Positions 18,790-60,454 of a stretch of DNA of 64,000 nucleotides are shown piece after piece. The DNA comes from Paramacrobiotus metropolitanus (taxonomy: Eukaryota; Tardigrada; Eutardigrada; Parachela; Macrobiotidae). The translations under genes and the position numbers were made by a program. The stretch covers positions 1 to 64,000 of the forward strand of contig NW_026570402.1 of the NCBI RefSeq assembly GCF_019649055.1. Direction: 5' to 3'. Positions within the stretch are counted from its first letter, which is position 1; each line of letters starts with the position of its first letter. Below the pieces are notes generated by a model. It made no database searches, was not told where the DNA came from, and was given only the letters and a program-made list of their open reading frames with translations.

Positions 18790-21113
18790 TCAAGCAAGAC
18801 CAGCGGCATCCGGTGAACTCTTTCTCGTACTGTATTCCTTTGAGCGTTTGCGCTGCTCCTTGGCTTCCTTCCACGCTTTAACTCGCCAATGTTGCAAGGA
18901 AAGTTGGTTGAAATTAACGTTTTGTTGTCTGTGGGCCAGACTGATGATGTGGTAACAGCCTCCCGCTAACCGGATATATCTTGCCTCCTTATAAGTGGAG
19001 TCCGCATAACCGCCAACGGAATACAGAACATGCTGGTTGATAGCCAAAATATCCCCTGCACGAATTATTTTTTCTTGCTTTACGTGGCGCACCTTCTCTA
19101 CGGTTTTAATACGCATCAGACACATGATCCCTGACCCGCACGCTCCAATCACAACAGCAGGGTGCCACTTCTTGTGACGCTTCACAGTACGCTTGACGAA
19201 CACTTCTTCCTTGTGCCGGAATTCCATATTTCCGATACGAATGAGTGGGTGTCGTCGAGATTGCTGGGGGAAGCGCTGCTTATGTTGGCGTATCTCCCTT
19301 AACGCTGTTGCCTCCAAAACCCACTCTGCACATAAAAAGAGGTTATACAAATTTTGCTGCACGATCGAAAGTGCGAAACGTTAATAACTATCCATGAAAT
19401 TACTATCCCAAAATGCGTTAAATAATAGCACCGAACTTCTCGATTCATATAATCCGCCATATTCATCAAAACCACAGTAGCAAATTTTAGACCACACTGC
19501 TGGAAATGAACAGGTTTGACTATTAATGAACCACCACAACGTTTTTAGGCTTTTTAGCTTAACATTTATTGTACTTCGATGTCGTCGATAAACGGCTGTC
19601 AACAGCATTAATTTAATATCGACTTTTAACCGCCTTACGTTGGGAGGCAAGTCAGTCAATTGCGAGACAGTCATTAATGGAAAGCGGATCAGGTAAAACA
19701 GTTCGCCCAAGACTTCGCGCCGGTTAGCTGGCGAAGGCTCCAAATTGCTCCGAGTGCAGACAGCCACTGTCCATCTGCGAAAGTAAACCAAACATAACTG
19801 TACCCGCGCAATGTGCCCTGGTTAGTTCTGGGCTATAGCAGCTTTGCTACTTTCAAATTTAGGGTTTTACTGAGTTTCAACCGGGTGACCTTTTAGGCGG
19901 AAGAAAAACAACCACTAGTTAACGGCCCTCGCGTTTAGCTCAGGGATTCATAACTTCTGCACTCGTTACTTTTGACACTCCTGTAATGAACTGGAACGGG
20001 ACACCGGAGCACATAGTCGCGAAGAGAGGACGCCGAGAAGTAAAACTCAATAAGACTGCAATTCTACGTAACCGGCCACACTTGCTTGCCACACTTGCTT
20101 GCTTACCTATCCACAGCCCTGCAAATGAGGCTCTCTTCCGCAAACAGCGTGTCGCGTTCCAGAATTAAGCGCAACGTGCTGGGCTGCAATTCAGCGAACC
20201 GTTCCGACTGGAGAACTCCTCTGCAGTGCACGTCCACAAAGTGAAGACAGTTTTCCACGACACCTTCGATGCCAACAGCCCAAGTCAGCGCCTACAAATC
20301 AGGTGCTGAAACTCATTAGATGCCGAAAACCTAGCAGCAGGAGCAGATATACATTGTCCATATGCAGTAAACAGCGATCAGCACGACCGTTGCCGGTGAG
20401 ATCCTTCAAGACGAAATCCAGACAAAAGTCAGTCAACAGTGGTAAGTCGTACTTGTCGGCGCACTGCATCGTCGGAAAGACATCTTCCACTGTCACACGC
20501 TTTTCATCGGCGTAGATGTATCTACCGTATTGCACGTGTTGTCAAGATGAACCATATTTTCGAACCGTTTTTTCGCAAACTAGCTTAATTTGCGTTCAAA
20601 AGCGTAAACACTAAAGGCGTTCCTAGTTCCTACTTTTGAAGCTGCTTTCTACTGATGAACTTTTCTGGGTATAAAGTTGAATACAAAACTTATCAAGCTA
20701 CAAGAAATTTCGAAGAGTTTACTGACCTCAGCATATTTTCGAACGCTTCAGGAGGAAATTCTGGAATTTCAATGGCACGTTCGCATTTCTCAGGCAGACT
20801 CCCGTGAAACATGGTGAAGAAGACATCACTGGCGTTGCTTAGCATGAATCTATTAATTTATGGATCAGTACAAGTTCGCATCAATCTGTTGCGCAGTAAT
20901 ATCTAGTAAACCTGATAACAGTGGGATAATTCAATCGGAAACGTACTTGTGTGCGCGGAAGATTTTCGCTGGTCCGAACTCTCGCCCTACTGAGAACTTC
21001 ACATCGCTCAAATCTCCACTGTTCAGAATCTGCTCCATTCGCTTAATGAGCCCCTTAATTTGGCCCCGTCGTGGGGTACTGGCTTTTGTCGATCGCGGCA
21101 CAGTTTTCGACAT
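18790..21113 (-). CDS. G2: intact type A BTB-BACK protein, 437 aa
   Basis: Six exons: 21113-20947, 20849-20727, 20521-20353, 20291-20107, 19774-19639 and 19323-18790. All introns are GT-AG, phases agree, and the sum is 438 codons with the stop. BTB spans residues about 33-150 (S-D-V-K-F-S-V-G, S-D-V-F-F-T-M-F, Y-I-Y-A-D). BACK spans about 155-215 (V-V-E-N-C-L-H-F-V-D, L-E-R-D-T-L-F). The BTBD6-like linker (about 215-260) has N-R-R-E-V-L-G and Y-L-I-R-F-P. The type A domain (about 261-437) has E-E-V-F-V, W-H-P-A-V-V-I-G and a basic Lys/Arg tail. BTB-BACK proteins usually act as Cullin-3 adaptors; that role is inferred. The last acceptor was placed at the second AG because only that keeps frame. 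Confidence 0.9.
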
Positions 21114-21447
21114 GTCAGAAATGGACTGCGCTCCTATACTGTTGACGTATCAACACGAATCTCAGATGGATCTGATGACTCCGTGAAGTTCGTACTGCGA
21201 TTTCACGATGCTTCGCCGTCGCTGCTCTCTGCACTGATGACAATTCAACAAGACAGAAACAGTTCAAAGTATGGCCTCGGTAACTTGAAACTACAACAAC
21301 ATGAGAATAAATATCAAAGTTCTGACGAAGACAGAAGACCTGCTGCAGATTTCTCAAAATCTGCTAATTTGTTGTGCTGAAACAGAGTTCCTGTTCTGGG
21401 GTGCAAAGTGAACGGTACAGAGTGCACGCGTTACGAAGCATAACCCA

Positions 21448-21524
21448 CCGGAAGCAGAACAGTTGCATAACCGCTTCTCGCACGAGGCTAGGTTGTATGA
21501 GAACGCCGCTCCTGGCGACCGCCC
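21448..21524 (+). promoter_or_regulatory. Composite promoter module of G2
   Basis: CCGGAAGC (21448) and GGCGACCGCCC (21514) are 66 bp apart, 335 bp before the G2 ATG. The same pair at nearly the same spacing precedes G3, G8 and G10. Confidence 0.6.
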
Positions 21525-22645: not shown

Positions 22646-25362
22646 TCACATCAGTCCAGCGACGTCCAATGAACGTTTCCTCGTACTACCGTTGCCACTC
22701 TTTTCCTTGCCTTTCCTCCACGCTTCCACTCGGGAATGTGGAATAAAAATCTGACTGAACTTGACTTTTTGCTCCCTGCCGTTGCGGAATTTAGTGATAT
22801 GATAGCCCCCTTCCAACCTCACATACTTGCAATCCTTGTAGAGGTCCACAAAGCCAGGATCGGGATGAAGAACCAGCAGATTGGCTGTAAGGATATCCGC
22901 CGCGCAAACGATATTCTCCGGGACGACCTTCTGGATGCTTTCATTACACATTAGGACGACCGCCGATCCACGTGTTCCGATCACCACAGCAGGATGCCAT
23001 TTGTCATCTCGTTTCACGAAGACTTCTTCATTATGACGGAATTCTACATCACCGACACGGATGACCGGGGCGCGCCGGGGCTGCTGTTTGGGAAAGCGAT
23101 TTTTCTGCATCTCCTTCGTTGCTGCTGCCTCCAACCATCGGAACTATAAACGTGCATTGATGAACCAATTATTGCAACGTTACACAATCAAAATTTTGGT
23201 AATTAAACGGGGATCAAAACAAACCTGTAAAAGCTACATGCTATACTTATTTCGCGCAGCGTTCGGCCATCCAAGTAATCAAACAGATACCTTTGTGGTT
23301 ACACCATGTGAAGTTGAAATTAAGTACGTACACTAACTGGAATACAATTGCTATCTTTCAAATCAAACTTCAACAGACGACCACCCGAAATCTTCAATTC
23401 CAGAAACCGGTTTTCTTTCGATCCATTTCTTAACCCGATTAAATATGATACACCTTTCAGAGTACGTAAAGTTTAAAAAGATCTTGAACCGTCTCCTAGC
23501 AACTGCCTCGCAAAGAAATCATTGACGAGAGCGCTTTAGCCACTGCACTACACCGAAAAAGATGAAGCACGGGATGGGTACAGTAATTACCGCCTACCTC
23601 CGCAGGCAAGTCAGCAATTTCTTGGTTCGTCATCACTGGGAATCGTATCAGATACAACAGTTTTCCCAGGACCTGGAGACGGTTAGCAGACGAAGGTTCC
23701 ATCTTTCTCCGCGCACAAACAGCCACCGCCCACCTACAAACATAATCACGTCGGCAACTGCCAGTGTAGACCTTCTCCGACACATGTTGATGAGCTACCC
23801 TCTAGTGTGGCAAGTAGCATTATTTACTAAACCGTATCATGGTTAACTGTAAAATTTAGAGCGTTTTAACCAGACAGTCTAACAGAAGACTTTCACTTTT
23901 AAGTGCTGGTAACGAGAGATTCTGTATGCTGTATCCTTTATTATTTTGGATTTGGACCTTATTCATTTCTTGTCAGGTTCTTCTTATTGAGCACTTCTAT
24001 CTGTACTATTTCTGCAGCAAACAGGAAAATCTACCGGAATATTGTGCGTACGGACCGATTGACAGCCGCGCAAATGAGCGTCTCGTCCATAAACAAAGTG
24101 TCACGCTTCAAAATCAGGGTCAGCGGACCGTATTCCAATTTAGCGAAGTGTTCCGACTGGAGGAGGTCCTTACAGCGTATATCCACGAAGTGCAGACAAT
24201 TCTCCACGATATTTTCATGCTTAACGCCATACGATACCGCCTACAGGAGTGGTGTAAACGTAAACAGCAGCAAATGCTCCGTAGCAGTGCAATTACTTAA
24301 TTCTATCATCACGTACGTCTTCTATATATCGGAAACAGTTGTCGGGGCCGCGGTGGAGATCCGTGAGGATAAAGTCCACGCAGTGGTCGGCCAGCTGCTG
24401 CACTTGGTACTGGTCGGCGCACTTCAGCGTCGGAAACACATTTTCCACAGTGAGACGCTTCTCGTTGGTGTACAGGTATCTGTCGTGATTTGTAATGTTT
24501 GAAAATCAGAGCTCAAGCCGAAAAACCGTATACCTGGTGAATTTTCCAAGTTAAAACGGCTATTAAACTATCAGATGGCGCTGACTAGGCGCGCATCGAC
24601 CATCGACGGCGAAACAAAAGCAAACCCGGATGAAGGCTTTAATGCCGAAATCTGACACACACCGCGCTTTGCGCGCAAGCCAAGAACCAACTGGTCTCTG
24701 TAGGCAGCTGCGCTGCCTTACAGAGCCATCAAAACGCATGAAAGTGCCCAGACAGGAAAAAAACCAAAACCAACCAATGACAGAAGGGCTGAATCATAAG
24801 CCCGCCCTGACAAAACTGATTTTTTTTTTCATAACAAAATTAAAACTCCCTTCATGCAAAACCGATCAAACTGCATAGTTTAATCATTCTAATTAGTGTA
24901 AATCTGCGCAGGCTTATTGTCATTGCGTACTGGCTGACTAGCCAAATTAAAAAAAAACTCCGTGCTATTTACTCACTGCAGCATATTTTTGAAAGCTAGA
25001 GGAGGAATGTCCGGAACCACAATCGCGTGGCCAGGCAACTCATGCAGTCTGCCGGGCCCATTGAGCATTGCGTGAAACAGATCACTACCGCTGCTCAGCA
25101 CCAACCTGAAGAAATCACGCATCATCTTCCGGTTCACACTAGTCTCACCATCGGCATCCACTAGCAATTCATAAGAGTGGGATCACAATGTCACATCAGC
25201 TTACTTGTGAGCCTTGATAAGCTCATAATTTCGCCCCACTAAAAAGTGCACATCGGACAGGTCTCCGCTCCGCAGCAGCTGGTCCATCCGTTTGTCCACC
25301 CCGTCGATCGTTCCCCGTGGTGGAACACTGGATCTTGTATCCCGCGCAGTAGTCGTCGACAT
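22646..25362 (-). CDS. G3: intact type A BTB-BACK protein, 422 aa
   Basis: Exons 25362-25205, 25105-24977, 24479-24317, 24240-24056, 23733-23598 and 23143-22646, total 423 codons with the stop. BTB carries S-D-V-H-F-L-V-G, S-D-L-F-H-A-M-L and Y-L-Y-T-N-E-K-R. BACK carries I-V-E-N-C-L-H-F-V-D and L-K-R-D-T-L-F. The linker has R-L-Q-V-L-G-K and L-I-R-F-P. The type A domain has V-E-F-R-H-N-E-E-V-F-V, K-W-H-P-A-V-V-I-G, Y-V-R-L-E-G-G-Y-H and a terminal T-R-K-R-S. It is the most divergent intact member in exon 2, with G-R-L-H-E-L-P-G in place of the usual L-P-E-K-C. Exon 4 uses a GTCCGT donor. Confidence 0.88.
24696..24725. other. Small hairpin in intron 2 of G3
   Basis: CTCTGTAGGCAGC pairs with GCTGCC-T-TACAGAG around a TGC loop: 13 bp of stem with one bulged T. 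It may be chance or the core of a small RNA stem. Confidence 0.35.
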
Positions 25363-27070: not shown

Positions 27071-27370
27071 TTATTCTTTCTCGCCGGTCACTTTGACGAC
27101 GTTGCCGTCTTCTTCTGGCTTGAGAGAGCTTCCCTCTGCTGCCATATAGATGCTTGGATAATGGTACAATGGAAACAGAGCGTCCTGACCGATAGTCAAG
27201 ATACCCGAAGCACGCAATATTTTCTCCAGTCCGGACCGGCGCAACTGCTAAAGCGGTTTAGCGCGCATAGATAGATATAAGGCCGCCGAGCAACGTGCTC
27301 CGATCACAGCAGCAGAACGCCAGTATTCCTCTCGTTCTACGAATTTTTCCGCCTTGTTCCGGAACACCTC
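27071..27370 (-). pseudogene. G4: remnant of a type A C-terminal exon
   Basis: The minus strand reads K-F-V-E-R-E-E-Y-W, S-A-A-V-I-G-A-R, a stop (TAG), then E-K-I-L-R-A-S-G-I-L, I-Y-M and a TAA at 27071. These line up with the core of the type A domain, best with G5 (E-N-W-C-P-A-V-V-I-G-A-R and E-K-V-L-R-A-S-A-I-L). No BTB, BACK or linker exon was found upstream, so only the last exon survives. Confidence 0.65.
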
Positions 27371-29453
27371 TCGTTATGAGCATCCCCGACGCTGTTGTGT
27401 GCTGAATATTTGTACTTGTGCAGTGCAGCCATGCGGATTTGTACGAGCGCATTCACGATTCCTGTGTTGCTCATAGCGTACAAATTTTCTTCACGCGCAG
27501 AGTAGAGTACAATACGTTTTGGTACCCACCGAAAGCAGATCATGCAATCACGTCGCTGCCCGCCCGAGATTGGCATATATAAAGACAGCACGCCATGGCG
27601 ACCGCTCACAACTATACTTTTATGTTGGATGGATGATGACAGTTAACAGACATAGACAGCCCAATGTCCACCGAGGCGTAAACCGCTCGAGTATGCTGTA
27701 ATGTCCAATTAGCGAAGCCGTATCATTTGCGCGTGGTGGCGCGGTAGATAGGTAAGCGTCGAACATGGTCTACAAGCTACCACCACCGGGCTGATGCATT
27801 TACTTACGTATTTCCGGGGCCTCAGGAACAAGAAACATGCAGTCCAGTAAGTGACAACTTGTTTGAACTATCGTTTATGTACCTAACGAGAAGCGAGTTA
27901 AAAATTCCGGGAAATGAGCTTCGACATTGGTAGTACTGCAGATTCTGTTTCTTCGTGCGTGAAAAAATGTACTGTACAGTGTAACATGACGCAGGCAAAC
28001 GAGAACGATACCGATGGGATGCGGAGTGGAACACACCGGCAACTCAAAGACCCAACGGACGGTAACTGAACTCCGCCACAGAATCCAAGAATGTTCCCTC
28101 AGAAAAAGAATAGTTTTGTCATTGTGATTAAATTACCAAAAGTGCGCACTAGCAGCCGCGGTAACACGCTACGAGGCAGATGACTTAAGCAACAGCGGCA
28201 AGCGAAACATTAGAAAAACCCAAAAGCGGCACCACCGCAACAAGCAGGCCGCCACAATTTCTCAGCATACCCGGAAGTAAACTTTTCCGCCCCATTTCTC
28301 GATATATAAAGGCAAATTAGGAACAATGATTGTTACCATAAGTTTTCATGATCTGCGAGACCACTTGGTATTAATCGGTACTCCTAAATCACATTCCATC
28401 ATGTAAAATTATAATATTACAGTGAATTTAGAATTATGAACTTGAGTCACACTTTCTGAAATCACTCAATAACTTTTACATAATTCCGAAACCAGGCACA
28501 ATTTTCCAAATCTCATGCATCCACATGACTTCAGTAAAATGGCTTTTTACCGCCGATCTCAGAGACCCAGACCAACCACTGCAGCCCCAGTTTCCCGACT
28601 ATCGATGCGAACTTCGCTGGTACACTCAATTCGACATGATTCAGTCCCGGACATTCCTCTTTCCCCTGTGATATGGGTCTGGTGTAGGGCAAACGGTGAA
28701 TTTTTAAGACTGATGGGAAATATTGGTTGCGTCTGATGGTATCACCCAACAGAATCTCTCCAACTTCAGTCAGCATGAACAAAAACAGCAAGAGTATTGT
28801 ATACAGAGTATTGGTGGCAGCAGTAGACATTATGTCGGCCACTGTTTCCTGGATCTCTAGATGAGGATGCTTGTTATCCGTTGTAGCAATGTTTACTAAA
28901 TTTGCGTTCCGGTTTACGTTCATTAAAGTTCGTGTCTATTCAAACCAGATAAAATACTGCAGTTCTGCGACGGCAATTCGACGCAAATCACGTCCCTTTA
29001 GCTTTATTAATTTCAGTACTCTGTACAGCCACTCAGCCAGATTTCACTAACCAACAGACACATTGTGCGGTACGAGTATTCATTGGCAGACACATTGGCA
29101 GTACGAGTATTCATGACAGCCGTACAACTATTTTGGAATATCACTTCTGTCACTTCTTGAACTGATTAGAAAGCAAGTATCATCAGTCTGCCAATTTAAA
29201 ACTACTGTACAACACAATGTACAAACGACTGTCTTTCTAGTACAAAATTAAAGAATGTTCATTATGCACCAGCAGCATTAAATCACCAGTCACCCGCTGT
29301 TGCTTCGTGGCGACAGTCTTCCCATTCCACTTTCATCTGTAGATTTTCTCCTCGCCATCATTTGAGAAACGCAGAACCACCATGTAACGTAACCGAAACC
29401 AAAACAAACAAGTCCCAACACCCGGTATGCCTAATACCGTCAAAGCGAAGCGC
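27371..29453. other. Intergenic stretch; one unrecognised minus-strand frame
   Basis: A 130-codon minus-strand frame (28923-28531) starts with ATG and has one hydrophobic segment (T-I-L-L-L-F-L-F-M-L). I do not recognise it. It could be a small membrane protein or chance. Nothing else was found. Confidence 0.3.
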
Positions 29454-32094
29454 TCACGTCAAGTCAGCATCATCCCGTGCACGCTTTTTCGCGGGGGCCT
29501 TGGAATTCTCCACTTTCGCGCTCTTCTCATTGGCTTTTTTCCATGTCTTCACGCGAAGATGTTGCAGGAAGATCTCACTGAACTGGACGTGTTGTTCTTT
29601 ACGACCCAATTTAATGACGTGGTGATCTCCATCATCCCGCACGTACTTTGCCACTTTATACTGGTCCACAGCACCGGACCCGGAATGGAGAACAAACTGA
29701 TTAAGTGCCAGGATGGCCGATGCGCGAAGCACTTTCTCCGGCTTGATGTGAGCCACCTGGTTGCTGTTGTTACTGCGCATCATACACAGGATCAGGGAGT
29801 CACGTGCTCCAATAACAACCGCTGGACACCAATTCTCCGCCCGCTCGACGAAGACCTCTTCTTTATCCCTGAATTTCATATCCCCGACACGGATAATCGG
29901 AGTCCGGCGGGGCTGGGTGTTAAAACGGTGGGGGTGATGGCGGATCTCCTTTAACGCCTTCAACGAAAATTACCAAATTAAGTGACAAATTAATTCCGCT
30001 AACAGCAAAGCAATCAAAAGGTCACGTCACGACTCACGAGAAACTGAATCCAAAATTATTCCAGTTCGAAAATTAAATAAGACAGAAACCACATGGCTGT
30101 GCCCAAAAAGAGATAAGCCGCGTTTCTTGAACTAATTAATTCTATATAAATTTCCAAACCAACGTCTACTGGATCAAGCTCCTTACGTCTGCCGGGAGAC
30201 CGAAGAGGTCCATGCCCGCCATTACGGGGAATCGGATCAGATAGAAGAGTTCCCCCAGTGCATCGCGCCGGTTAGCAGGGGAAGGCCGCCAGTTTCTACG
30301 CGCGCAAAGAGCCACGGCCCATCTACGAAAAAAAACCATCTCTTAGTCGCCATGGTTGCAGGTGACACGACACATCGGCAAGCTGCCCTGAGTGTGACAA
30401 GTCACAGCTTTCCCACTAGATCCGTGACGTCGCGAATTGTCACAGCTTGTTCTAGATACTTGTTTTACACCCCACACGTTAACGTAAGTCGTAACTGTAT
30501 CACGTTGTTCGAAAGCCCGTGAAATTCTCTACTAACCGATGTGAAGACTGCTTCAGTAGTAACTTGAAAGTCATCTCATAGCGATCCCCTAAAATTAAGG
30601 CATTTATGACGAGCTGCTGTCGGGAGAAACGAAAGTATAAATGCGAGCCGGTGTTCAGCGCAGCCCAATCGTGCAGGGTATGTTATGTTCACCAGCATCC
30701 CTTTGCTTCCATACCGTACTCGAACTGTTGTACCGTTTCAGTACTGTAGCCGCTCGCTTGAGTTATACCACACAGTTGGTGTACGGGAAAAATGCGCACC
30801 AATATACACACGCTGGCCGGGCCAAATGCACGGACCAGCGCGATTGTAAATTCATTGACGTTTATTCTGAGAATATTGTCCATCAGTTTTTAAGGTGATA
30901 ACTTTCTCTTTTCAATTTTAATATTTCTTAGACAAACCGCACTGTATTCCACAGGAACGATCAGTTTTCAGGCACCAGCATACTGTCGCTCAATGTGCCT
31001 CCCCCTTCCAGGGGCACCCCAAAAACCACAACAAATCAGCTGCTAAACTCGTTCATACATCAAAACTCAAAGTTTATGGCCTTATTTTGGTGTCAAATTT
31101 TAGAATGATAAGTTTTTTTAAATTTCAGATAGATCAGATCGAAAAATGTAACAGAAAAAGTTACAGAAGCACGGTAAATAAGAATCGTGCATTTTGCCCG
31201 GCCAGAGTATGTATATTTGATGCGCATTTTTCCCGTACACCAACTGTGTGGTATAACTCAAGCGAGCGGCTACAGTAATACACGCTGATAAGCCTGATAT
31301 CAAACTTCTACTCTGATTTCCTGCAATTCTTTACCAATGTGTTTTAACCTTGATAATATCTTGGCTTATTTTGTTCGTGTAGCTTCGTTATTTCTGAAAA
31401 AAAGTTGTCTTGCTGGCTTTAATACTTACCAGACTTGGCGTTATGGGACCACTGCCCACAATTAGCGCTACGCTTTCCAGGGAGCGTGCGCGTTTCGCTA
31501 CGAGTTACGCAATTTACACAAGTAAACCGAGTTTCGCGTTATTTTGCACGCTATGCTACATTGTGAAATACAGGTACTTCTGTTTTTAGCAGCGTCACGT
31601 TTCAACATTACGTTATAACCCAATACCGCGCGCTACGTTAATTCGTTAAAAATAACTGCCCATGTCTGATACTTACCTATCGACTGCCTTGCAAATGACA
31701 CTGTCTTCAGCCAACAACGTATCACGTTCCAATATCAGCCGCAGTGTGGTGAATTTCAACTGAATAAACCGTTCGGACAGGAAGACGTCCTTGCAGTGAA
31801 CATCGACATAATGGAGAGTGTTCTCCACCAGACTGTTGTCGATGTCAGCACTCCATGTCATCGCCTAAATCCCGCAGAAACCCTGTCAGTACCAACAAGA
31901 CTGTCAGAAGAAACCGACATACACTCTCCAAGTGCTGCAAACAGCGATCAGCACCGACGCTCTCCGCGTTGAGATCCAGCATCACGTAATCGAAACAGAA
32001 ATTGGCTAACGGTTTCAGATCGTATCGGTTGGCGCAGTTCATCGTGGGGAAAACATCCTCTAATGTCACGCGTTTCTGATTTGTATAGATGTAC
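29454..32094 (-). CDS. G5: type A BTB-BACK gene lacking exons 1-2
   Basis: Exons found: 32094-31923 (172 bp), 31864-31677 (188 bp), 30322-30187 (136 bp) and 29957-29454 (504 bp). All are in phase with GT-AG borders and no internal stop. They encode the end of BTB (Y-I-Y-T-N-Q-K-R), BACK (L-V-E-N-T-L-H-Y-V-D, L-E-R-D-T-L-L), the linker (N-R-R-D-A-L-G-E-L-F-Y-L-I-R-F-P) and a complete type A domain (K-E-E-V-F-V, W-C-P-A-V-V-I-G, basic tail). The first exons, expected in the next few hundred bases, are not visible up to 33839. Either they were lost or a large intron hides diverged copies. Intron 4 holds an inverted-repeat insertion. Confidence 0.75.
30742..31277. repeat. Inverted-repeat element in intron 4 of G5
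   Basis: About 90 bp at 30742-30831 recurs in reverse complement at 31186-31277 with few mismatches. Both arms contain GAGTTATACCACACAGTTGG and GTACGGGAAAAATGCGCA. The spacer is about 355 bp. Intron 4 here is about 1.35 kb, against 0.3-0.5 kb in G2 and G3. Confidence 0.8.
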
Positions 32095-33839: not shown

Positions 33840-33869
33840 TTGAATAAAGCTAATTTTTCAACACCAAAA

Positions 33870-46812: not shown

Positions 46813-47458
46813 AGGATCATCTTGAGACTGTCGTGTCCAATGCTGCTGAACTGTTCGGATCGCAGAATTTTATCACTGGAAGCCGTCACGATATTCATGC
46901 ATTTCTCCACAAAATTAAGCCGATGAGGGCTCCAACGGTTGGCCTGTGGAAAGAAGGGGCACAAATTTAATTGGCTTTTATCTGCTGATTACCTAATACC
47001 TAGCACGGGGTTACGATGAGAGTTCTACTTAGAACCAACATTGTCCAGCGTGATCAGGCAGTTATCTGCATTCAGATGTTGGAAGATGTAGGCGCAACAG
47101 GTGTCAGCCATTAAGGGAAAACCAAATTTATCAGCGCAGTGCAGTGTTGGGAAGACGTTAGCTTCGTTGATGCCTTCCAGCGAATCAGTGTACACATAAC
47201 TGAGCAAGTTGGCGAACGCGTCACAAGGAATGTCAGGAAAGTGAATAATCAACGGGCACGATTCAGGCACGCTTTTACTAATCATTGAGTTGAATACGTC
47301 GCTGCTGTTGCACAGAATATTCCTGCAAAAGCGAAATCAACTACCCTTGCAATGGAGACCGAACAATGATCGCATATTTACGATTAGTATTAAGCAGTTT
47401 ATAATTCCTTTTGCAATGAAATATACTTGTGTGCGGGGAAGGTTTTCTCAGTGCCAAA

Positions 47459-47500
47459 TTGGCGTCCCACAGCGAAGTGCACATCGCTGTGGGACGCCAA
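47459..47500. other. Inverted templated mutation in G9 exon 1
   Basis: TTGGCGTCCCACAGCGA (47459-47475) is followed after 8 bp by its exact reverse complement (47484-47500). In G6, G7 and G11 this second position holds ordinary BTB sequence. Net change is -2 bp. Confidence 0.85.
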
Positions 47501-47842
47501 CTAACATGCGCTTTATGCGATCCAGCACTCCCACAGCGCCACGACGTTCAACGCTGGTAGCGATGATAGGAGCCTCACTGGCCTCCGATGACTGATTCAT
47601 GCACATAGTAGAACTGCAGGCCATGAGATGCAAGCTCAAATTCGAATCCAGATAACTTCGAAGTCAAAACAAATTTTCAGCAAAAAATCTATAAGGCTAT
47701 CAGCTGCTGTTTGGCTTTGGAATGAAGGTGCCGTGGCCCGTGTGTAACTACAGCAGTGTCGCCTCTGAAGTCTTAACAGCGTCTAGCAATCGCCTATGGG
47801 CGGCGGCCATGCTTGTCCAGTCAACAAATCATCTTCCGTTTA

Positions 47843-48493: not shown

Positions 48494-51400
48494 TCAGTTG
48501 AAAACAAACAGCACGCTCGGTACCAACACGATCGGTTCAAGGCAGACTAGGGCATCCGGTGAACGTTTCCGTTTACGAGCGGCTTGAGCCTTCCCGTTGC
48601 CGATCTCCGTGGCTTTCTTCCACGCCATCACCTGCAAATGTCCCAAATAAATCTTATCGAATGCCACTTCCCGTTTAGGTCGGCCCGGCAAAGCGATGAT
48701 ATGGCGGCAATCCTCCGCTTTGACATATTTGGCTTTCTCATGGTTGTACCAGACCGGTTGCCGAGCGGTTAAGTAGTCGGATGCGCGAATGATATCCCCC
48801 GGGTCCACTTTCATCAGGTCTTCATTCTCATCATAATCGTCATCGGCGTCGCCATCATAATCATCATCCTTGTTATCGTCATGATATTCGTCATCTTCGC
48901 TGTCGTAGTCGTAGTCGTCGGGATGAGGACGTACGTTAAAATAATTCAGAGGCAGGCAGAGGGCTGCTGAGCCACGCGATCCCATCACTAATGCAGGCAC
49001 GTACAAGGTCTCATCACTATCAGCCACAAATACTTGCTCCGCGTGCTTGAATTCCACCTCGCCGACAAGGATGACGGGGGGCCGGCGGGGTTGCGTGGGA
49101 AATCGGCCTTTGTCATGGCATACGTCCAATAACGATAAGGCTTCAAAGAATCCACTCTACACACACAAACCGATTCGGGAAACATTTTGGAGTCGAAGAG
49201 ACCATTTTTTCGAAGTCTTGATAATTTTGGTTTGGTTTAAGTCTGAAATGGATCTCGTGATCCGAGAATTAAAATAAGCGTCAACGGTGCCTAATTCTAA
49301 TGCGGAAATTCAACAGAATTCAATTCACAACATTTATATTGAATGCGAAACAGTAGCAGCCTTTCCCCAAAAATATTTCATTTTCGAACTTCATTTTGCA
49401 TTTTAAAAAGCGATCAGCTTTACTGCCTTACTTTGGCGGGTTTGTCAGGCACTTGACTGATGGGTGTCAGTAACGGGAATCGGATCAGGTAAAATAATTC
49501 TCCCAGGACCTCGCGCCGGTTAGCGGGCGACGCCTCCAAATTTCTCCGTGCGCAGGCAGCAGCAGCCCATCTGCGAGAAAAACAGAATGTAACTGTCAGG
49601 TTCATAAATCTCGAACATAGATCTACAAGAAGTCTTCTCAAGTTGCAAAATCATAATACTTCTAAGTAATTTCGTACGGGTGATGCCACTGGACGGACCA
49701 GAACATAGATCGCTCCCCTGCTTTAACTGCTGATATTGATTTACCCGTTTATGGTGTTTGTGGAAGTATGTACGTATGTATCATCATTTACTATGTAATA
49801 ATTATTGTATTATGTATTGTATGTAGTATGTATCGGAATTCGGGAAGTACGCATCTTTACTGGAACTCGACAACTTGCAACTGAACTCATAATACAGCAA
49901 CCGCTGGAAGTACAACATAGCGTTGCTAGGTAGAAAGCATCATAGAATCTCGAGAATCTTATGTACGTAGGTACTACCAAGAACTTACTATAGGTAGTAG
50001 TAGTAAGTACACTATAGTAAGTACTATAGTACTCACACTATAGTAAGTACTTGGTACTACGTATCGTACGTATAGGTACGCGCACATCACACCGTTCTAT
50101 ATTGTTATTAATTAAGTTTTGATACCTTGTTTTTAATTCTGTTTATCATTTTCCGTTGTCGAACAAAACCGCTGTAGCGGTGCCACGAAATTAGCAGTTG
50201 GCAATGCGCTAGTGTACATGTGAGCTTGGCTGATAAGAAAAGTGGTGAAGGTAACTCAGTTCTGGTTTGTTCACAATATGATCAAAATTATTCGTCTGCA
50301 GTTCTTGTTATTAATGTCCCCATGCTTGTAACCGGCGGGAATGGTGAAAGCCACAGGACAAAACCGCTACGTTTCCACTATTAGACTAACCGTAGTTCCC
50401 TACTGACCTATTCACTGCCGTGAAAATGATGTCCTCGTCGGCCAACAGGGTGTCGCGTTCCAGAATGGCGCGCAAGGTGCCGGGCGGTAATTCAGTGAAC
50501 CGCTTCGACCGGAGAACTTCCTCACAGTGTACGTCAACATAATGCAGACAATTTTCCACGACCCTGTCGATACCAACAGCACACGCCAGCGCCTGCGCAG
50601 TAACCAAGTAAATGTTAGGAAGTTCGTGTAGATCATAAACATGAGCAGACGTACATTCTCCAGATGCAGTAAACAGTGAGGAGAATCTACTGTGAGGCGA
50701 TCCTCCGCGACGAGATCCCGAATGACGAAATCAAAGCAGGTGTCGGCCAGTAATGACAAGTCGTATTTGTCGGCGCACTTCATCGTCGGATGAACATTTT
50801 CCAACGTCACCTTTTCATTGTCGGCATAGATATATCTGTAACACGATGTATCATGGAGAACCGTTGGTCATTCAATAAACCAGAGTAAAATCTATAACTC
50901 CGTTTTTCAAGCTGACCTTTATTAATTTCATCGTAATGAGAGCATTTTATACGACGAATAAACGTATCCAACGAAATAGGTTAAAGTTTTAACAAGCTAT
51001 AACAAGAAAATTTCCTCTAATTTCTCATGATCCGGTATTGTGCCCATCACGCACATAGCGTTTCCTCTTTGAATCTGTATGGAGATCCGCTGCCGGAAAA
51101 ATTCCTTCGCCCGTGGTTGCCCGGTAGTGGCCGCGACGAGGTGTCCGATTTTATCCACTAGCTTCTTAGCTCCGCCGCCCAAAGGTCCGTAGGTTTCGAA
51201 GGCAGCGGTGACAAAATCGTACCTTGGCTGAAGCCACGCATGTTTTGCGAGCTTTTTTGTTTCGGCTAGTTCCGCTGCCGCACCGACATTGACGGATGTA
51301 CGATCAACATAAGAAGTTGCCAGAGTGTCAACACAGGTTACGTCTATTGCGAGTGGTTTACCACGTTCCCATGGGATAAGCGTAACTACATCCGGTCTTT

Positions 51401-53029
51401 TGTTACCCACTATGGCCAATCCTTTCGGTTCTACTCTGGCAGGGAAACCGCCCGTCGTTAACGCGCGAGCGAACTCCCTGCTGATGCCATCGTGTCTAGG
51501 TAGTCGTCCGGCTGATCGTTTGCACCGCATTCCATGTCTCCCGAACTCGTCCACCCATTCGCCGCATTTACATTCATGAGGAGTTACGATAGGGGCACCT
51601 AATCGTAGAGCGACGCTGGTCTGAAAATCAATATTTTCTAACAGATTACCTAAGCAAGCAGCTGGTAATGCGTGAATCCAGTAACCGGATTCTGGTGTTG
51701 ACACCGCCTTCAAATGTGCGACTTCTGTGGCGGAGACACGGAGTGCAGAAAGGTCAGAGAGGGCACGCAAGGTCGCAGGAGTGTCCCATGCTTTTTGGAC
51801 GCTGTGAAGGGGTTCAGCCGGCACATCATTTAAACCTGTAAGCAACTTCCAGGCCAGTGTTGCGGATGTTACATCGGTCGGTGGTAGTATCGGGCATAAT
51901 TTAGAGATAAGCGGGCGCACAGAGGAAGCCGATGCCAGGTAGGCGGAGGGAGCTAGCTCCTCGGTGCGTCGTATACCTAAACCACCCAATCGAACAGGAA
52001 GTGATGCCTGCATCCACGTAGGGTGATCCATTTTCACGTTAGTGATGGTCTCCACAGCAGCGCGAAAAGTTTGATCTAGGGCGTATAATTCTTCCGGAAA
52101 CTGCCACGCCAAGGAAGTACGAAGGAGGTGAACGATTTTCGGTACGCCAAGGCAATTTTTTAACAAAAACAGTGCTTGGTGTTTTGGAATTAGCGTAAGT
52201 CGTTCGCTCATGTTCTTCACTTCTTCCACTTTCTTTTTAATTACGGGTGTTACTCCTGTCGGCAACAAAGGTGATCCCAAGAGGCTGAGCTTGTCTTTGG
52301 ACACCACCGACAAACTGGGAAAATGTGCCTTGAAATTTGCAGCGACCTCTTCTTGTTGTGTGTCCGATCCACCGCAGATAAAGAGCTCGCATTTTGAAAG
52401 AGCTCGTAATGAGAACAACTGGTCAAAGTTATTACGTAACTGAACTTATCAACTTGTAACTGCGTATGACGTCGTAGGATCGATGAACATACTTCAGCAT
52501 ATTTGCGAAGCCCACAGGAGGAATATCCGGAATATGAATTGGAGCATCGCACTTCTCAGGCAGACTCCCGTGGAACATGGTGTAAAATACATCGCTGGCA
52601 CTGCTTAGCACGAGCCTGTTAAATACTGCAGGTCGTTTAAATAACCTACTGTTATCGGCGTGGCAGCTAGTGGCCTGCTTCAGCATCTTTTGCGTTAATT
52701 TTGGTCCTGGTTACGAAAACGTTAGTTTCGAGTGAGAAAAAGCCAAAACTTTCAAAGATACACTGCTTGGCTAGTTGGCTGTAATATCCAGTATTTGTAC
52801 AACAGGCAAGCCGTCAAACGGTCTCAGATCGTAAGAGTCCGTCCAGCGAGATAACGGCAACTTACTTGTGGGCTTTGAAGATTTTCGCTGGTCCGAAATC
52901 TCGTCCTACGGAGAACTGGACATCGCTCAGATCTCCAGTCTGTAGTATCTGCACCATCCGCTGAGCGACCGCGGGAATCGTGCCCCGTGTGAAGCTGGCT
53001 CTGGTCAGTCCAGGCGCAGTTTTCGACAT
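48494..53029 (-). CDS. G10: intact type A BTB-BACK protein with acidic loop, 484 aa
   Basis: Exons 53029-52866, 52615-52493, 50835-50655, 50592-50408, 49570-49432 and 49156-48494; 485 codons with the stop and GT-AG throughout. BTB (about 33-155) has S-D-V-Q-F-S-V-G-R and S-D-V-F-Y-T-M-F; BACK (about 157-218) has V-V-E-N-C-L-H-Y-V-D and L-E-R-D-T-L-L. The linker has N-R-R-E-V-L-G and Y-L-I-R-F-P. The type A domain (about 264-484) starts F-P-T-Q-P-R-R-P-P-V-I, has P-A-L-V-M-G-S-R-G-S, then an Asp/Glu/Tyr-rich loop of about 45 residues, K-V-D-P-G-D-I-I, and a basic R-K-R-K-R-S that could act as a nuclear signal. Intron 2 is stretched by a LINE fragment. Confidence 0.9.
48822..48935 (-). repeat. 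Trinucleotide-rich tract coding the acidic loop of G10
   Basis: Plus-strand TCATCG/TCATCA/GTCGTA triplets give the Asp/Glu/Tyr run. The matching tract in G8 (about 40250-40320) is shorter and differently arranged. Confidence 0.75.
49780..50060. repeat. GTA/TAC-rich palindromic patch in intron 4 of G10
   Basis: Dense TATGTA, GTACTA and ACTATAGTAAGTACT motifs, several self-complementary. No coding signal. Confidence 0.5.
50997..52418 (-). mobile_element. 5'-truncated LINE with endonuclease-like C terminus, in intron 2 of G10
   Basis: A 473-codon open frame covers the RT thumb and C-terminal parts of a non-LTR element family common in marine invertebrates: A-L-S-K-C-E, L-L-G-S-P-L, L-P-V-R-L-G-G-L-G-I-R, then C-x-C-G-x-x-V-D-x-x-G-R-H-G-M-x-C, R-L-P-R-H, and K-R-P-D-V-V followed by A-I-D-V-T, which look like the PD-(D/E)xK core of a restriction-like endonuclease. 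It ends Q-R-I-S-I-Q-I-Q-R-G-N-A. No stop interrupts it, suggesting a young insertion. Intron 2 is 1.66 kb here against 0.21 kb in G8. Confidence 0.82.
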
Positions 53030-53116
53030 TTCCACAGTTGCACGGGTGGACACACAGGGTTATCGACAGCTTTATACCTGAATGACAGCTGCTAGTGACA
53101 GATAGACAGATATAGT

Positions 53117-54114: not shown

Positions 54115-55254
54115 ATGATTGCAGCTCTGTAGACGGAAAAAAACCGGGATACTTTAGTCTCCCGGCCAACGACGTTCCCGAGTTCTTCGGCAGCGACTGT
54201 CCATTCAAATCCACCCAGGGGACGCCTTAAAAGCATCTTGTCGGCCCAGGTGCAATTTCGCCGACACTGACGAACCACTCGGATATTATTAAATCAGAGC
54301 GCCCTAAAATTAACCGACATATCCCGGCCGCCTACTGCAAAGTCCCAGGGAACGTGCTTACCGCCGCGCCGCGTGCAGGAAGTAGCCGCAGCCCATCACC
54401 TTATTATTGTTGATCAGCAGGTGACCACGTCTCTTTCCCGTTTCTCAACCACTTTCGTCGGATACCAGCGCCCTTCGTGCTGCGTACACACCGCATAACA
54501 AAACGGGTACGGGCCGATGTGGCGTTGGATGCTGACTTCCGGTTGCGGCGAGAACTGGAGTGCTGACATTTCTGGAGCATGTTTGGGTGGGAACCTGCAC
54601 CACAGCATCCTGCTTCATAAACAACGCACTCGACCAAAGGCATTTACATAAAGATAGTATAAGATGATAGTGTCAAGTGTCAGCTGCACGTTCTCTTTAT
54701 ATAACGGGGAAACACATAACACATCGATTTTGTCAGTTTTGTTACGATTCCGATAGAAAATGAGATAATAAATGAGAACGGACGGGGAAATTTAGGTTCG
54801 TTCCACTGTTTCGTTCAGTTTCGTTTCCTGTTCCGTTTAATAAAAATATCTATAGAAGTACTTTAAGCATAGACGAAAGAAATTCAAATTCAAACATTAG
54901 TACGCTGTTTTCTTCTTACCAAGAACACGCTGATTTCGTTAGCTGTGCTTCTGCTTAGCAAGAATGCGATTATGAAAAATTTACATACAACGCGATTATG
55001 AAAATAACAGAAGCACGAATATCTATACAATATAAAAAAATTACAAAATCAGTGCAAATGAACTTTGGGTCAGTAATAGTGAGCGCCATCCCAGTTCGTA
55101 GGTTATGCGACAAAATTGGATTTAATCCGGACAGCACCCTACTGTTTGCTTTACATTTCAGGAGCAAGCTGCTCAAGCAGCATTAGATTCGTAAACTTAA
55201 TCGCTATCCCTCGCTCGAACAGCGGCCGCGTCCATGTGTTAACCACCGTGCTTC
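54115..55254. other. Stretch between G11 and G10, one unrecognised short frame
   Basis: A minus-strand frame (54608-54414) reads coding-like (H-I-G-P-Y-P-F-C-Y-A-V, G-R-W-Y-P-T-K-V-V-E) and faintly recalls the W-x-P-A-V-V strand of the type A domain. No flanking exons were found. The rest is empty. Confidence 0.3.
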
Positions 55255-58002
55255 TTAGCTACCGCATTGGTCGAGATAGCGGTCGTAATACGAGCGTCGC
55301 CTGTGTTCTTCGAGGGCGTACCGCAAACGATTCAGATCTAGCCGATTACGGCGGAATCCCGACCCTGCATTTGAGGAACTAACTTCCCCCTTCCCAGTTG
55401 TCGGTGGTTTCGCTTGGAAACCGGCACGTGCTGGCAGAGGCCCACTATTCAGCGCGGCAGTCTTGGACGAACACTCCATCTCGGTGTGTGTACGCGAACT
55501 GGCCGTTACGTTGCTGAATCGGCTTCGGCGTGGCTCTGTCGGAAACGGAAGGGCTGGCTTTTCCGGGGCGTGTTTGTACAGGTAGATATCACGTAGCTCG
55601 GTGAGCAGCAGTAGTCCACTCTAGCCAAAAATACATACGCATAAAATACCATTCTAATACTAGTAATATTACGTAGTAATCAAGCAGTGAAAATCGATCG
55701 TGACAGTGATACAGTACTGATACAATTCATTCAGCATATTAAAGCGAATGAATGTTGTCTAAGCGGTTCACAAAACGCGACATCCTGTTCTGATTAGCTT
55801 GCCATAAGCGTTTAATAACTATGTAGACACATTATCCGAAGCTGACCATTCTATTTCTATTCCTGATTTTAGCTGTGTTTCTTCTTCCGTTCGTACGGGA
55901 CGACGTCTAATAAATTAGACCTGCGATCTGGCCGCACAGTGAACTGGTGTTTCTCTCGCTCGTGTATCGTAATCATAGCTGATTCGTGACCTTAAATCCT
56001 TTTTCAACCCGTACAATCGCAAGCTCCCTCGAAGCGCTGAGTAAGCAATTCGAGTTGAGATGCTTTAAGAGCATCGTTTCAATAGTGGAGTAGCTAAATG
56101 CAACTCATACTTCATTGATAAATGTTGTCAACTTTACACTACCTCGTTGCCAACGAGGTGAACTGAGAACTTTTAAAAAGAACAAGTAAAAAGGTTTATT
56201 GAAATTTTTAAAGGATAACTTTTAAAATGTTGTTATTAATATTACTACTTAACAAAATATAATTATAGAAGACGGTGAATCAGGAACCTGTAAAACACTG
56301 TTGCGGATTAAAAGCAAATGCTTGCAACTGGCAAACTTTCGATGCGCAGTCCTGTTTTGCAAATAAGATGATCACACCACTGCAGTTCAACTCACCTGGA
56401 TCGGTCCCACGGCCAACTGAGCATCTGTCATGAGCGGAAAGCGAATGAGAAAGAGCGCCGCACCCAGCACTTCCCGCCGTTTGGCGGCGGACGGTTCCAA
56501 GTTGCGTTCCCGGCAAGCCGCCACTGCCCACCTGCTTTGACAGACTAGAAATAAACCGGTTCCACAAAACTTGCTGCGCAGTAACAAAATACATTTTCCG
56601 CATAAAGGCGGCAGCGAAAGATTACAAGGCATGACTCCCATGTTGGGAATAGAGTCATGACTGCGCATTTAGACTAATTTTTTCGCGTGCGGAAAGATAA
56701 AATTTTCAGTACATTGTTGGATTGTAGCGCTTCCGCTGCAATTATACTGAAACTTTTGTTCCTAATTGCACAGAAATTTCATGATAAGGGCAGAGCCAAG
56801 TTTATTTTTAACGAACGGATTCTACAGACTTCCGGCGCGTGACACAAATGGAACTGCCCAGAATTGCAGCATTCTTCGGTTTGTATCTGGGAAAATATCT
56901 GAAAGCTCCCATTCCTTATGGTTTTTAATTTTTGCCCCGAAAAGTGACTTCTTCTACGAAACTCTGACTGGAAAATAAAAAGCGCGTTATGGGAATCAGT
57001 TTAAGTGGAAAAAGGTAGAGCTATTAAAAAAGAGAGCAAGGGCCCATTCAAGAAGAGGATTTACGGAAAATCTGTTGACTGATTGATATATTTTCAAGAT
57101 ATGGTTCTTTTAATTGTTTTTCTTACTTGTCCACTGCCATATACACGATACTCTCATGGACGGACAGAGATGAACGCTGTAGAATCTTAATCAAACTGTC
57201 GTGTCCAATGCTGCTAAACCGCTCCGACCGCAGAATTTCGTCACTGGAAGCGTCGACGATCTCGAAACACTTCCCCATAATCTTAACGTTACCAGGGCTC
57301 CAACGGTTGGCCTGCCAAAGGAACATTAATTTAATACGCTATTAAATACTGACTATGCAGCATAAAAGTTCACGGGATTATAATAAGAGTAAAATTTAGT
57401 TTTGAACCAACATTTTCCAGCGTGGTCAGGCAGTTATCCGCATTCAGGTGTTCGATGATGTAAGCGCAACAGGTGTCCACCAGCAAGGGCAAACCGAATT
57501 TATCAGCGCAGTGCAGGGTTGGAAAGACGTTGTCTGCGTTGATTCCTTCCACCGAATCGGTGTACACATAATTGAGCAGGTTGGCGAACGCGTCGGAAAG
57601 AATGTCTGGGAAGTGAATAACCAACGGACACGATTCAGCCACGCAGTTGCAGATCATCGAGTAGAATACATCGCTGCTGTTGCACAGGATGTTCCTGCAA
57701 AAACAACATCCGATCACCTCGCACTGGAAACCCTTCACACAATGATCCCATATTCTAAATTCGTACTGGTTAATTTACAAGTCGTTTTTCAATGAAATAT
57801 ACTTGTGCGCGGGGAAGATTTTCTCTTGGCCAAATTGGCGCCCCACAGAGAACTGCACATCGCTGAGTTCTCCGCTGGCCAGCATGCGCTTCATGCGATC
57901 GAGTATTCCAACAGCGCCACGGCGTTCTGCGCCGACGGAGATGGCTGGAGCCTCACTGGACTCCGCTGGTGAGTTTAAGCACATGGTAGAATCACTTGCC
58001 AT
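55255..58002 (-). CDS. G11: intact type B BTB-BACK protein, 389 aa
   Basis: Exons 58002-57803 (200 bp), 57694-57412 (283), 57311-57127 (185), 56531-56396 (136) and 55620-55255 (366); 390 codons with the stop. The donor after exon 2 is GTTGGT, shared with G9. BTB has S-D-V-Q-F-S-V-G-R, N-S-S-D-V-F-Y-S-M-I and Y-V-Y-T-D-S-V-E-G; BACK has M-G-K-C-F-E-I-V-D and L-Q-R-S-S-L. The linker has K-R-R-E-V-L-G and L-I-R-F-P. The tail begins L-L-T-E-L-R-D-I-Y-L-Y-K-H-A-P-E-K-P and then differs from the other type B tails: little proline, ending with an Arg-rich E-E-H-R-R-R. The switch is near T-E-M-E-C and may reflect an old frameshift. Confidence 0.88.
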
Positions 58003-58236: not shown

Positions 58237-58244
58237 CCGGAAGT
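58237..58244 (+). promoter_or_regulatory. ETS-like CCGGAAGT upstream of G11
   Basis: 235 bp before the ATG; a TTTCCGGT in the opposite sense lies just before it. Confidence 0.5.
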
Positions 58245-59147
58245 GTCATTGATCAGCGATTCAGCTAACATTTTCAATTTTACGAGTGAGCGGATCGAAG
58301 GTTTAATTTAAATGAAAACTTGAGAGAAACATGTCGATGCAAAACATAAATAAATTAATATTGTTTAGTTAGCAGAAACTGAGAAAATTGAAAACCCCGC
58401 GCACTATTTAATGCGGGTAGTAACAATTCCCACATACAGCTAGACAGATACAGTAACATTAACTACTTGTAGTTATTACGAAGAGTCAGACATCTTTCTC
58501 TGTTGGCTGGTATACGGCCAGTGCAGCGCACCATGGTGCATAAGCTATGATTCATAGAGATAAGAACGGGTATGTTAAAAAACGGAGCTCTGCAGCGCGG
58601 TATCTCGAATACGTGCGGTATAGTTGTTTTGACCATTCAGAGCATAGATAAGCTCCGGATCGTGATGACACACGTTACCAGTCGTTTCTACTGCGCTTAA
58701 TGCACAAAAAACCTTCATAGGCGTTGGAAGATACCCGAATGTCTGAATCTGTGCATTGTAACAGAATACCGCCAATAAACTGCGCAATCAGTAAGGGATA
58801 AGAACTACATTGGATTCACTAAACGAACGCCACTGTACGTCTGCCACATGTGCATAAAATGCGATAATATGAACTGAGACTTAGAAAGTAAGTACACAAA
58901 AAATGATACATAGTACAGAAAACTTTGAGATTGAACAACTGCGAAAAGCGGACAACTGCGAATATTGAACGCCAGGGCATACTGTAGCTGGGTTTGGTGT
59001 TAGCCTGTTAGGTATGCGTATACACTATCATTTTCGATTAAGCGATAAAATGGTGGTTCTTTCATCAGTGCTGTTGTATTCCACTCCAGAGACATTTTTT
59101 AGGCAGCAGCAGAACCGCAAAACGGACTGTTATTTCAGATCCGTCGG
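58245..59147. other. Intergenic stretch between G12 and G11, no gene seen
   Basis: A 70-codon minus-strand frame (58787-58575) is unrecognised. By the B-A alternation a type A gene would be expected between G11 and G12, but no trace of one was found. Confidence 0.4.
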
Positions 59148-60454
59148 TTAATCGTCGCCATCGGTACCGTCGCTATCGCTATCGGACTCGTATGTTATCG
59201 GATGGTACGGTACCGTAGTCGGCGGTGTTGCGTAGGAGAAGTATGGTGGCGGTACAGGTGGTACCGGTGGTGCGTTGTAATATGTTTGGCCGATCGGCTT
59301 CATTTCGATGGCCCCATGTGTAATCGGAAGGGACGGTGTTGCGTAGGAGATGTACGGAGGCGCAACAGGTAGTGGTAACGGTACAGGTGGCAGTGGTTGT
59401 ACAGGTGGCAGTGGTTGCACAGGTGGCAGTGGTTGTACAGGTGGTGGGTCGTAATATGTTTGGCCTATCGGCTTCGTTTCGATGGCCTCACGTGGTAACG
59501 GACGGGACGGTGTTGCGTACGAGATGTACGGAGGCGCAACAGGTAGTGGTAACGGTACAGGTGGCAGTGGTTGTACAGGTGGTGGGTCGTAATGTGAGCG
59601 GCCCCACCACGGCCCTAAAAATCCTGCCTGGACGCCCATGAAAGGATTCACAGCCAGTGGATAAGCCATTGGTCCTGGCAGATTTGTTGTCATTGTCATT
59701 GTTGGCGCTGGACACATCCCACCAGGCACTGGCATCACCCCATGGGCATTGGACTGCCCCACCGCCGTGAGTAGCGGGTTGAATGGAAACCCTGTGCCGG
59801 TGTTGGTAGGCCCTGTGGGTAATGTGGTGGACGACCGGCGGCTACGCGGCTGCGTCGGGAACGGGGATACTGGCTTTTCCGGGGCGTGTTTGTACAGGAA
59901 GATGTCGCGCAGCTCGGTGAGCAGCAACAGTCCGCTCTAGCAACCAACCATCCCAGTGAATAATAAGCCAGTTAAATGCAAATTATTATAAAAATTCTCA
60001 CAATTCTTGCTGTTAACCCTAAAATTCTTGATGCACGTTCTGTATCTGCCTTTAAATTCATACTCAGATCTGTTGATCTGCCTTAAGCATTTTACATCTG
60101 GAGCTCAAGTGCTTTCTGTTCGACCAGATTTAAATAGTAACTAGCAACTAATAGGTAATAATTAGAAACTGATTGTTATTGTTACAGGTTCGTACCAAGT
60201 GAAAAGAAAATTTGTAAAATAACTGACCAACTCGAAGGTAGTGCGTATGGCAGGGAAGTTATCGATTCGAAGTAGGGAGTTGAGAATTTAACAGCACTGA
60301 TGATGCAGCTACACTCACCTGGACCGGTCCCGCTGCGAGTTCCGCATCGCTCAACAGCGGAAAGCGGACGAGAAAGAGCGCCGCACCCAAGGCTTCGCGC
60401 CGGTTGGTGGCGGACGGCTCCAGTTTGCGCTCTTGACAAGTCTTCGTGGCCCAC
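59148..60454 (-). CDS. G12: last two exons of a type B gene with a long proline-rich tail
   Basis: Exons 60454-60319 (136 bp linker exon: K-T-C-Q-E-R-K-L-E-P, A-L-G-A-A-L-F-L-V-R-F-P) and 59936-59148 (262 codons plus stop). The tail starts L-L-T-E-L-R-D-I-F-L-Y-K-H-A-P-E-K-P and continues as a low-complexity chain with repeated D-P-P-P-V-Q-P-L-P-P-V and P-P-Y-I-S-Y-A-T-P, ending in an acidic D-S-D-S-D-G-T-D-G-D-D. BTB and BACK exons are not in the window and must lie past the LINE at 61404 if they exist. The repeats suggest growth by replication slippage. Confidence 0.82.
59380..59600 (-). repeat. Coding minisatellite in the G12 tail
   Basis: ACAGGTGGCAGTGGTTG-type units of 18 bp occur in a row near 59384-59445 and again near 59553-59580, inside a larger duplication (59336-59460 and 59513-59592) that contains GAGATGTACGGAGGCGCAAC. 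Confidence 0.75.

Follow-up and report, generated by a model that had tools for sequence, protein, structure and literature searches.

Array of BTB-BACK genes on contig C182

The window analysed here is the first 64,000 nucleotides (forward strand) of contig NW_026570402.1 (C182) in the 169.8 Mb, 533-contig genome assembly of the tardigrade Paramacrobiotus metropolitanus (GCF_019649055.1). It carries a minus-strand array of genes encoding a BTB and a BACK domain, followed by a short linker and one of two kinds of C terminus, here called type A and type B. The relatives BTBD1, BTBD2, BTBD3 and BTBD6 have a PHR domain at this position, whereas the family described here has a predicted tandem Tudor domain (TTD; type A), a MATH domain or a decayed tail in its place. 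The window was scanned with exon profiles derived from one PHR gene and two genes read by hand, and the flanks of the matches were read for splice sites. On the minus strand we found nine loci that include a C-terminal exon (W1–W9; the C-terminal exon of W8 came from a source other than the exon-profile search) and one truncated pseudogene (W10). The array described in an original prediction is therefore real, although several of its members are broken. Type A was assigned to five of the nine loci (W3, W5, W7, W8 and W9) and type B to the remaining four (W1, W2, W4 and W6).

The predicted exon sizes of 123, 185 and 136 bp held where they were counted by hand from the flanks, that is for exon 2 (E2, 123 bp) and E4 (185 bp) of W5 and for E5 (136 bp) of W1, W2, W4 and W6, with the exceptions that E5 of W5 measures 142 bp and that E2 and E3 are merged into a single exon in the B-side genes. 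The hand-spliced W5 protein passed the Pfam cut-offs for both BTB and BACK, and both window BTB exons that were scanned did so for BTB.

The array is not confined to positions 18,790–60,454, as first proposed. Leftwards it reaches the W10 pseudogene at 10.4 kb. Rightwards it extends to about C182:180 kb within the stretches covered beyond the window (64–84, 114–144 and 158–180 kb), where further gene units lie at about 65–69, 74–83, 117–119, 126–142, 160–177 and 180 kb. A genome search with one copy of type A returned 76 matches clustered at 47 places. The predicted expansion is thus supported, as a genome-wide rather than a merely local one.

Descent from BTB-BACK-PHR genes

The PHR family (PF08005) had seven matches in the whole genome at E values up to 0.001, none of which was located on C182, in agreement with the predicted loss of PHR and against a PHR domain that would be reached by splicing further downstream. 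Two of the genome's PHR genes, L031 (on C183) and L033 (on C66), share the exon chain of the family. Their intron phases are 0 at E3/E4, 2 at E4/E5 and 0 at E5/E6 in both, and 2 at E2/E3, which is legible in L033 only; the same four phases were found in the family genes that were read. With identical intron phases, the array linker SGLL..LTELRDIFLYKHAPEKP occupies the position held by SGLLSDKEVKELFLYFTLNPKP or a similar sequence in the genome's PHR genes. Exon 6 of the PHR genes begins with SGLLSDKEVKELFLYF or SGILRPEEVKDIFLYL and then runs on towards PHR, whereas exon 6 of the array genes begins with SGLL..LTELRDIFLYK (a stretch that is shorter in the window's type A genes) and continues after ..PR into different sequence. 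Together, exon chain and intron phases support a BTBD1/2/3/6-like BTB-BACK-PHR gene as the parent of the array genes, and the BTBD6-like linker with its shared splice phases was confirmed by the same comparison.

The C-terminal exon belongs to the BTB-BACK gene, because an intronless copy elsewhere in the genome (L036; C11:1321400-1323400) joins most of BTB, BACK, the linker and type A in one 396-aa frame, with E1 in another frame. BTB (E 8.3e-15) and BACK (E 1.3e-10) are above the Pfam cut-offs in this copy. A second intronless BTB-BACK copy (L035; C72:601800-604200) had no exon 6 match; both may be retrocopies.

Type A is a predicted tandem Tudor domain

Among the sequences then gathered, 58 rows scored above 90 bits against the type A profile and 54 of them entered an alignment (A1), across which nine columns of the domain are near-invariant. 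The domain of W8 was modelled with AlphaFold2 from an alignment of four window sequences. The best of five models (predicted local distance difference test, pLDDT, 78.8; predicted TM-score, pTM, 0.70) is mostly beta with a C-terminal helix. Its closest structural match was the tandem Tudor domain of 53BP1 (Z 11.9, 110 aligned residues, root mean square deviation 3.4 Å, 11% identity), followed by that of Crb2 (Z 9.4), with the remaining matches at 7.8 and below; Foldseek gave TM-scores of 0.61/0.66 for the comparison with 53BP1. Type A is accordingly predicted, from this single model, to be a tandem Tudor domain composed of two barrels and a C-terminal helix. To that extent, the model and its structural matches support the folded domain of the original prediction.

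MATH domains and other tails after the same linker

We fetched 40 linker loci, which divided into 17 with type A (some of them broken), 15 with MATH exons and eight with other tails. All three MATH exon queries matched in 14 of the 15 MATH loci and two queries matched in the last (L054). BTB-BACK exons (E3–E5) were found upstream of the linker at all 15, and at these 15 of the 40 linker loci MATH therefore sits C-terminal to the linker and not N-terminal to BTB. A phase-1 intron after ..PRQ leads into MATH, as read in L047, L058 and L060, whose spliced tails scored 35.6, 44.8 and 39.2 bits against PF22486 (MATH_2), all three above its cut-off of 32. The genome search with the MATH family itself gave no match, as was also the case in control genomes; the probable reason is that small exons divide the domain. 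Searching the genome with one MATH tail yielded 164 matches, at no fewer than 69 places among the matches listed, and the linker was looked for at the 15 of these that were fetched.

Of the eight other tails, those on C189 are arginine-glycine-rich or basic, and the rest are short or decayed. In L059, L085 and L076 (C189), the linker is followed by a basic or arginine-glycine-rich tail without TTD or MATH.

Tree of the family

A tree was built on E2–E5, with the tail exon excluded, from 57 of the 68 assembled genes; W7x, W10, C182i, L104, L105, L110 and L123–L127 were dropped (11 genes). The expanded genes were separated from the two PHR genes (support 100/99), and the MATH genes formed one clade on this BTB-BACK tree (100/96). 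The four type B genes grouped together (82/91) inside a nine-row C182 clade (100/100) that includes four TTD genes.

The BTB-BACK rows from C182:129 kb and 140 kb showed no difference on the tree, and some loci on C103 and C251 had identical match scores; either pair may represent two haplotypes or a recent duplication.

Type B is a decayed TTD exon

A DNA profile was made from eight TTD exons with the linker excluded; L049 and L072 among them come from C103, outside the B-side lineage. It detected TTD-exon remnants in the type B tails of W2 (28.4 and 12.9 bits), W4 (24.9), W1 (17.2) and W6 (12.8), as well as in L040 (28.9 and 16.8 bits) and, in fuller form, in L083 (54.0) and L043 (166 kb; 40.1). 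No score above 0.8 bits arose in 500 dinucleotide shuffles of the W1, W2, W4, W6 and L040 tails, nor one above -0.8 bits in seven other stretches of the window, read on both strands. In W4, the C-terminal helix of the TTD can be read in frame 2, and frame 0 is the proline-rich one. W4 is broken in E1 and E4 as well, W6 is broken inside its tail, and the proline-rich part of W1 contains a 174-bp tandem repeat. For the single pair W1 and W4, the ratio of nonsynonymous to synonymous substitution rates (dN/dS) was 0.84 in the tail, compared to 0.28 in BTB and 0.30 in BACK. Type B is thus a TTD exon that has decayed and is read out of frame.

Evolutionary rates and the Cullin-3 motif

Rates were computed for 15 chosen, partly overlapping gene pairs. 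In 14 of the 15, dN of the TTD exceeded that of both BTB and BACK; TTD dN/dS ranged from 0.17 to 0.57 in the 14 pairs for which it was computable, and every computable value for BTB, BACK and TTD was at most 0.57. The TTD is constrained, yet it is the fastest-changing folded part of the protein, which fits the proposal that the exchanged C termini are substrate-binding modules.

According to PMC3616122, the phi-x-E motif in the alpha3/beta4 loop of BTB is a Cullin-3 motif. Of 55 E2 exons, 35 contained it when a relaxed pattern was used and 32 when the pattern was strict. By class, the relaxed pattern was found in 20/29 TTD, 3/4 type B, 4/13 MATH, 0/1 PHR and 8/8 other rows, with at least two of the TTD misses being cut rows (C182j and L120, in which LPE stands just before the scored stretch). 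In related proteins, as described in PMC3616122 and PMC1257465, BTB-BACK is a Cullin-3 platform and the C-terminal domain reads the target. By analogy, the family most likely consists of Cullin-3 adaptors in which a faster-evolving C-terminal domain would select the targets.

Features of the window

The loci and fragments of the array are listed in Table 1. Upstream of W7, E1 and E2 of its own kind were not found, and the detached type-B-like E1/E2 fragment lies there instead.

Table 1 Array loci and related fragments in the window (RT, reverse transcriptase; ORF, open reading frame)
Feature	Position	Strand	Content
W1	59148..60454	-	E5 60454-60319; E6 with type B tail 59936-59148; E1-E4 outside the window, in L038
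W2	55255..57927	-	E1, fused E2+E3, E4, E5, E6 with type B-side tail
TTD exon relic, downstream of W2 tail	54294..54584	-	TTD-like in frame 2, broken by stops, recognised by eye
W3	48494..52990	-	E1-E6; TTD 49105-48599 with acidic insert; RT-like ORF in intron 2
W4	43943..47549	-	Frame-broken E1, fused E2+E3, truncated E4, E5, E6 with type B tail
W5	39965..42648	-	E1-E6; frame break in TTD exon near 40.41-40.43 kb
W6	36067..39195	-	E1, fused E2+E3, E4, E5, E6 with type B tail; frame break within tail
Detached B-side E1+E2 fragment	34485..34840	-	E2 stops after FANL; upstream of W7
W7	29454..32093	-	E3-E6 with TTD 29927-29520
Isolated TTD fragment	27251..27373	-	Profile match, E 2.8e-8
W8	22646..25323	-	E1-E5 and TTD exon 23143-22646; source of the modelled TTD
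W9	18790..21074	-	E1-E6 with TTD 19275-18850
W10 pseudogene	10489..11421	-	E1, E2, broken E3, partial E4; no E5/E6 match

The window has other features as well. Frames that by eye resemble reverse transcriptases or long interspersed nuclear elements occur inside the array; judged by position, they lie in W3 intron 2 (50997-52445, minus strand), W1 intron 4 (61377-63212, plus strand) and W4 intron 4 (45861-46655, plus strand). Long gag-pol-like frames, by eye of Ty3 type with protease and reverse-transcriptase motifs, occupy the left end of the window (912-8084, minus strand), and a fragment of a Rab-like small GTPase, also recognised by eye, separates W7 from the detached E1/E2 fragment (33756-34169, plus strand). 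Just below 46809, E4 of W4 (minus strand) ends abruptly where a short TTTAGG-like repeat starts. A 38-bp tandem repeat with five near-perfect copies (98% matches) was found at 8719-8913. A search for lipocalins gave frames that by eye resemble fatty-acid-binding proteins.

Discussion

Taken together, we consider it probable that PHR was lost, that a TTD came to stand in its place, that the family then multiplied, that MATH was acquired in one branch and that decay of the TTD gave rise to type B. A gene of the BTBD1/2/3/6 kind, with BTB, BACK and PHR, would have lost its PHR domain, and a tandem-Tudor-like domain would have taken its place inside exon 6, just after the linker ..PR. The resulting BTB-BACK-TTD gene would have multiplied across the genome, including the C182 array. 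In one large branch, MATH, entered through a phase-1 intron that follows ..PRQ, would have replaced the TTD. Within the array, a number of TTD exons have decayed, and reading now continues from the linker, out of frame, into sequence that is proline-rich or of another kind. Replacement of PHR by TTD as a single event and as the first one is the most parsimonious order; it is a parsimony reading because the base of the expanded family is poorly resolved on the tree.

Besides this poor resolution, several results weigh against the proposed scheme. The position of type B within the nine-row clade is weakly supported, and several array members are broken (W4, W5, W6, W10 and the 34.8 kb fragment). 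The pLDDT values of the five W8 models were 78.8, 75.9, 62.1, 60.7 and 55.8, three of them thus lying at 55.8–62.1, and a second model, of W3 with its acidic insert, was poor (pLDDT 48, pTM 0.30); the fold is predicted from one model of one member. By E value, the top Foldseek match was the Tudor domain of SETDB1 (4e-4), with TM-scores of just 0.33/0.22. No sequence kinship with 53BP1 was detected when the type A profile was compared to it with hhalign (probability 0.4%), and the two halves of type A had no detectable similarity to each other (score 7.6, with shuffled controls up to 12.7). The best match in a profile search of PDB sequences was the PHF20 Tudor domain (E 0.048), a Pfam scan of the 54 type A members gave Agenet in four of them (best E 0.051, none reliable), and no TTD donor came to light. 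Finally, phi-x-E is absent from nine of the 13 MATH rows and from the sole PHR row. As the motif is lacking in most MATH rows, Cullin-3 binding may be different in the MATH branch or may not occur there.

Among the other explanations, the one that fares best is that the family is mostly neutral duplication debris, in which the tails drift since little depends on them, so that binding of targets need not be invoked. It would account for the broken members listed above and is in keeping with the retroelement-like ORFs within the array. We nevertheless regard it as unlikely given the dN/dS ceiling in BTB, BACK and TTD wherever it could be computed in the chosen pairs and the nine near-invariant TTD columns.

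It appears very unlikely that type A is a strongly diverged PHR domain and that nothing was swapped. Type A does follow directly after the same linker, the junction again has a similar ..PR, and the domain is predicted to be mostly beta. However, PHR was not among the 21 Pfam families matched by the 54 members at E values up to 1 (a scan in which the HMMER filters drop most weak matches), the model matches a tandem Tudor domain over nearly its full length, and type A lies in a single exon while PHR is spread over further exons in the PHR genes. Identification of type A as PHR is therefore not supported, there being no PHR match on C182 either.

The original prediction had held that two unrelated and functional C termini, a folded type A and a proline-rich type B, took the place of the PHR exons independently of each other. 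The long type B frames (up to 262 aa) and the intact type B linker speak for this, but type B genes are nested within a TTD-bearing clade and their exons contain TTD-exon DNA (best matches 12.8–28.9 bits), in W4 including the C-terminal helix in another frame. The high dN/dS of the one tail pair compared, together with the breaks in W4 outside its tail and in W6 inside it, points in the same direction. We therefore reject the view that type B is a replacement domain in its own right and hold this account to be highly improbable. That the C-terminal exons are separate neighbouring genes, with the BTB-BACK genes ending before exon 6, is barely credible, as the linker and type A are in frame within one exon, the acceptor and donor phases fit, the order is identical at many loci and the intronless L036 frame links all four parts.

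Lineage-specific expansions are a known feature of BTB adaptors, which are usually classified by a single characteristic partner domain. We file the present family as a variant of the BTB-BACK adaptors, with descent from the PHR family and without its PHR feature. It resembles BTBD1, BTBD2, BTBD3 and BTBD6 in BTB, BACK, linker, exon order and intron phases, as judged from the two PHR genes of the same genome. It has dozens of copies, whereas PMC1257465 gives four to seven BTB-BACK-PHR proteins per metazoan genome surveyed in 2005. The likeness to 53BP1 and Crb2 lies in the predicted fold; the family's domain differs in being fused to BTB-BACK and in its undetectable sequence kinship. MATH-BTB proteins of the SPOP type, which are expanded in C. 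elegans, likewise combine MATH and BTB in one protein and show lineage expansion, but their MATH domain is N-terminal (PMC1257465), whereas here it is C-terminal and follows BACK. BTB-BACK-Kelch adaptors (KLHL3 and others) share the BTB-BACK platform with a C-terminal domain, as well as phi-x-E in many members; they differ in that no Kelch propeller was named in the Pfam scans made of the present family. Neither a BTB-BACK-tandem-Tudor nor a BTB-BACK-MATH family was named among the literature matches listed, which did not cover bioRxiv and included few subscription papers. The orthogroup OG0005117 was rejected as a candidate tardigrade BTB family; according to PMC5531438, it comprises tardigrade and arthropod members and has no bearing on the family described here.

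The array is also a caution for readings of this kind, since what looks like a neat second C terminus can be the first one in decay and read out of frame. In this genome one BTB-BACK platform, which its intron phases identify, bears PHR, a predicted TTD, MATH or a decayed tail at the same junction. Should BTB-BACK bind Cullin-3, and should the C-terminal domain, which changes faster, choose the target, the linker would be a socket for exchangeable target-binding domains. We can put forward only tentatively, as a possibility that is open to considerable doubt, that these genes are the lineage's expanded Cullin-3 receptors, in which a fast-evolving TTD would read the targets and the linker would later have taken up MATH, PHR, TTD, MATH and decayed being the states of the socket. 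The family offers a concrete case of target receptors of E3 ligases changing their target-binding domain, and it makes testable the idea of a Tudor-type fold as a diversifying degradation receptor. If true, a fold known from chromatin readers would have been turned into a diversifying target receptor in this tardigrade.

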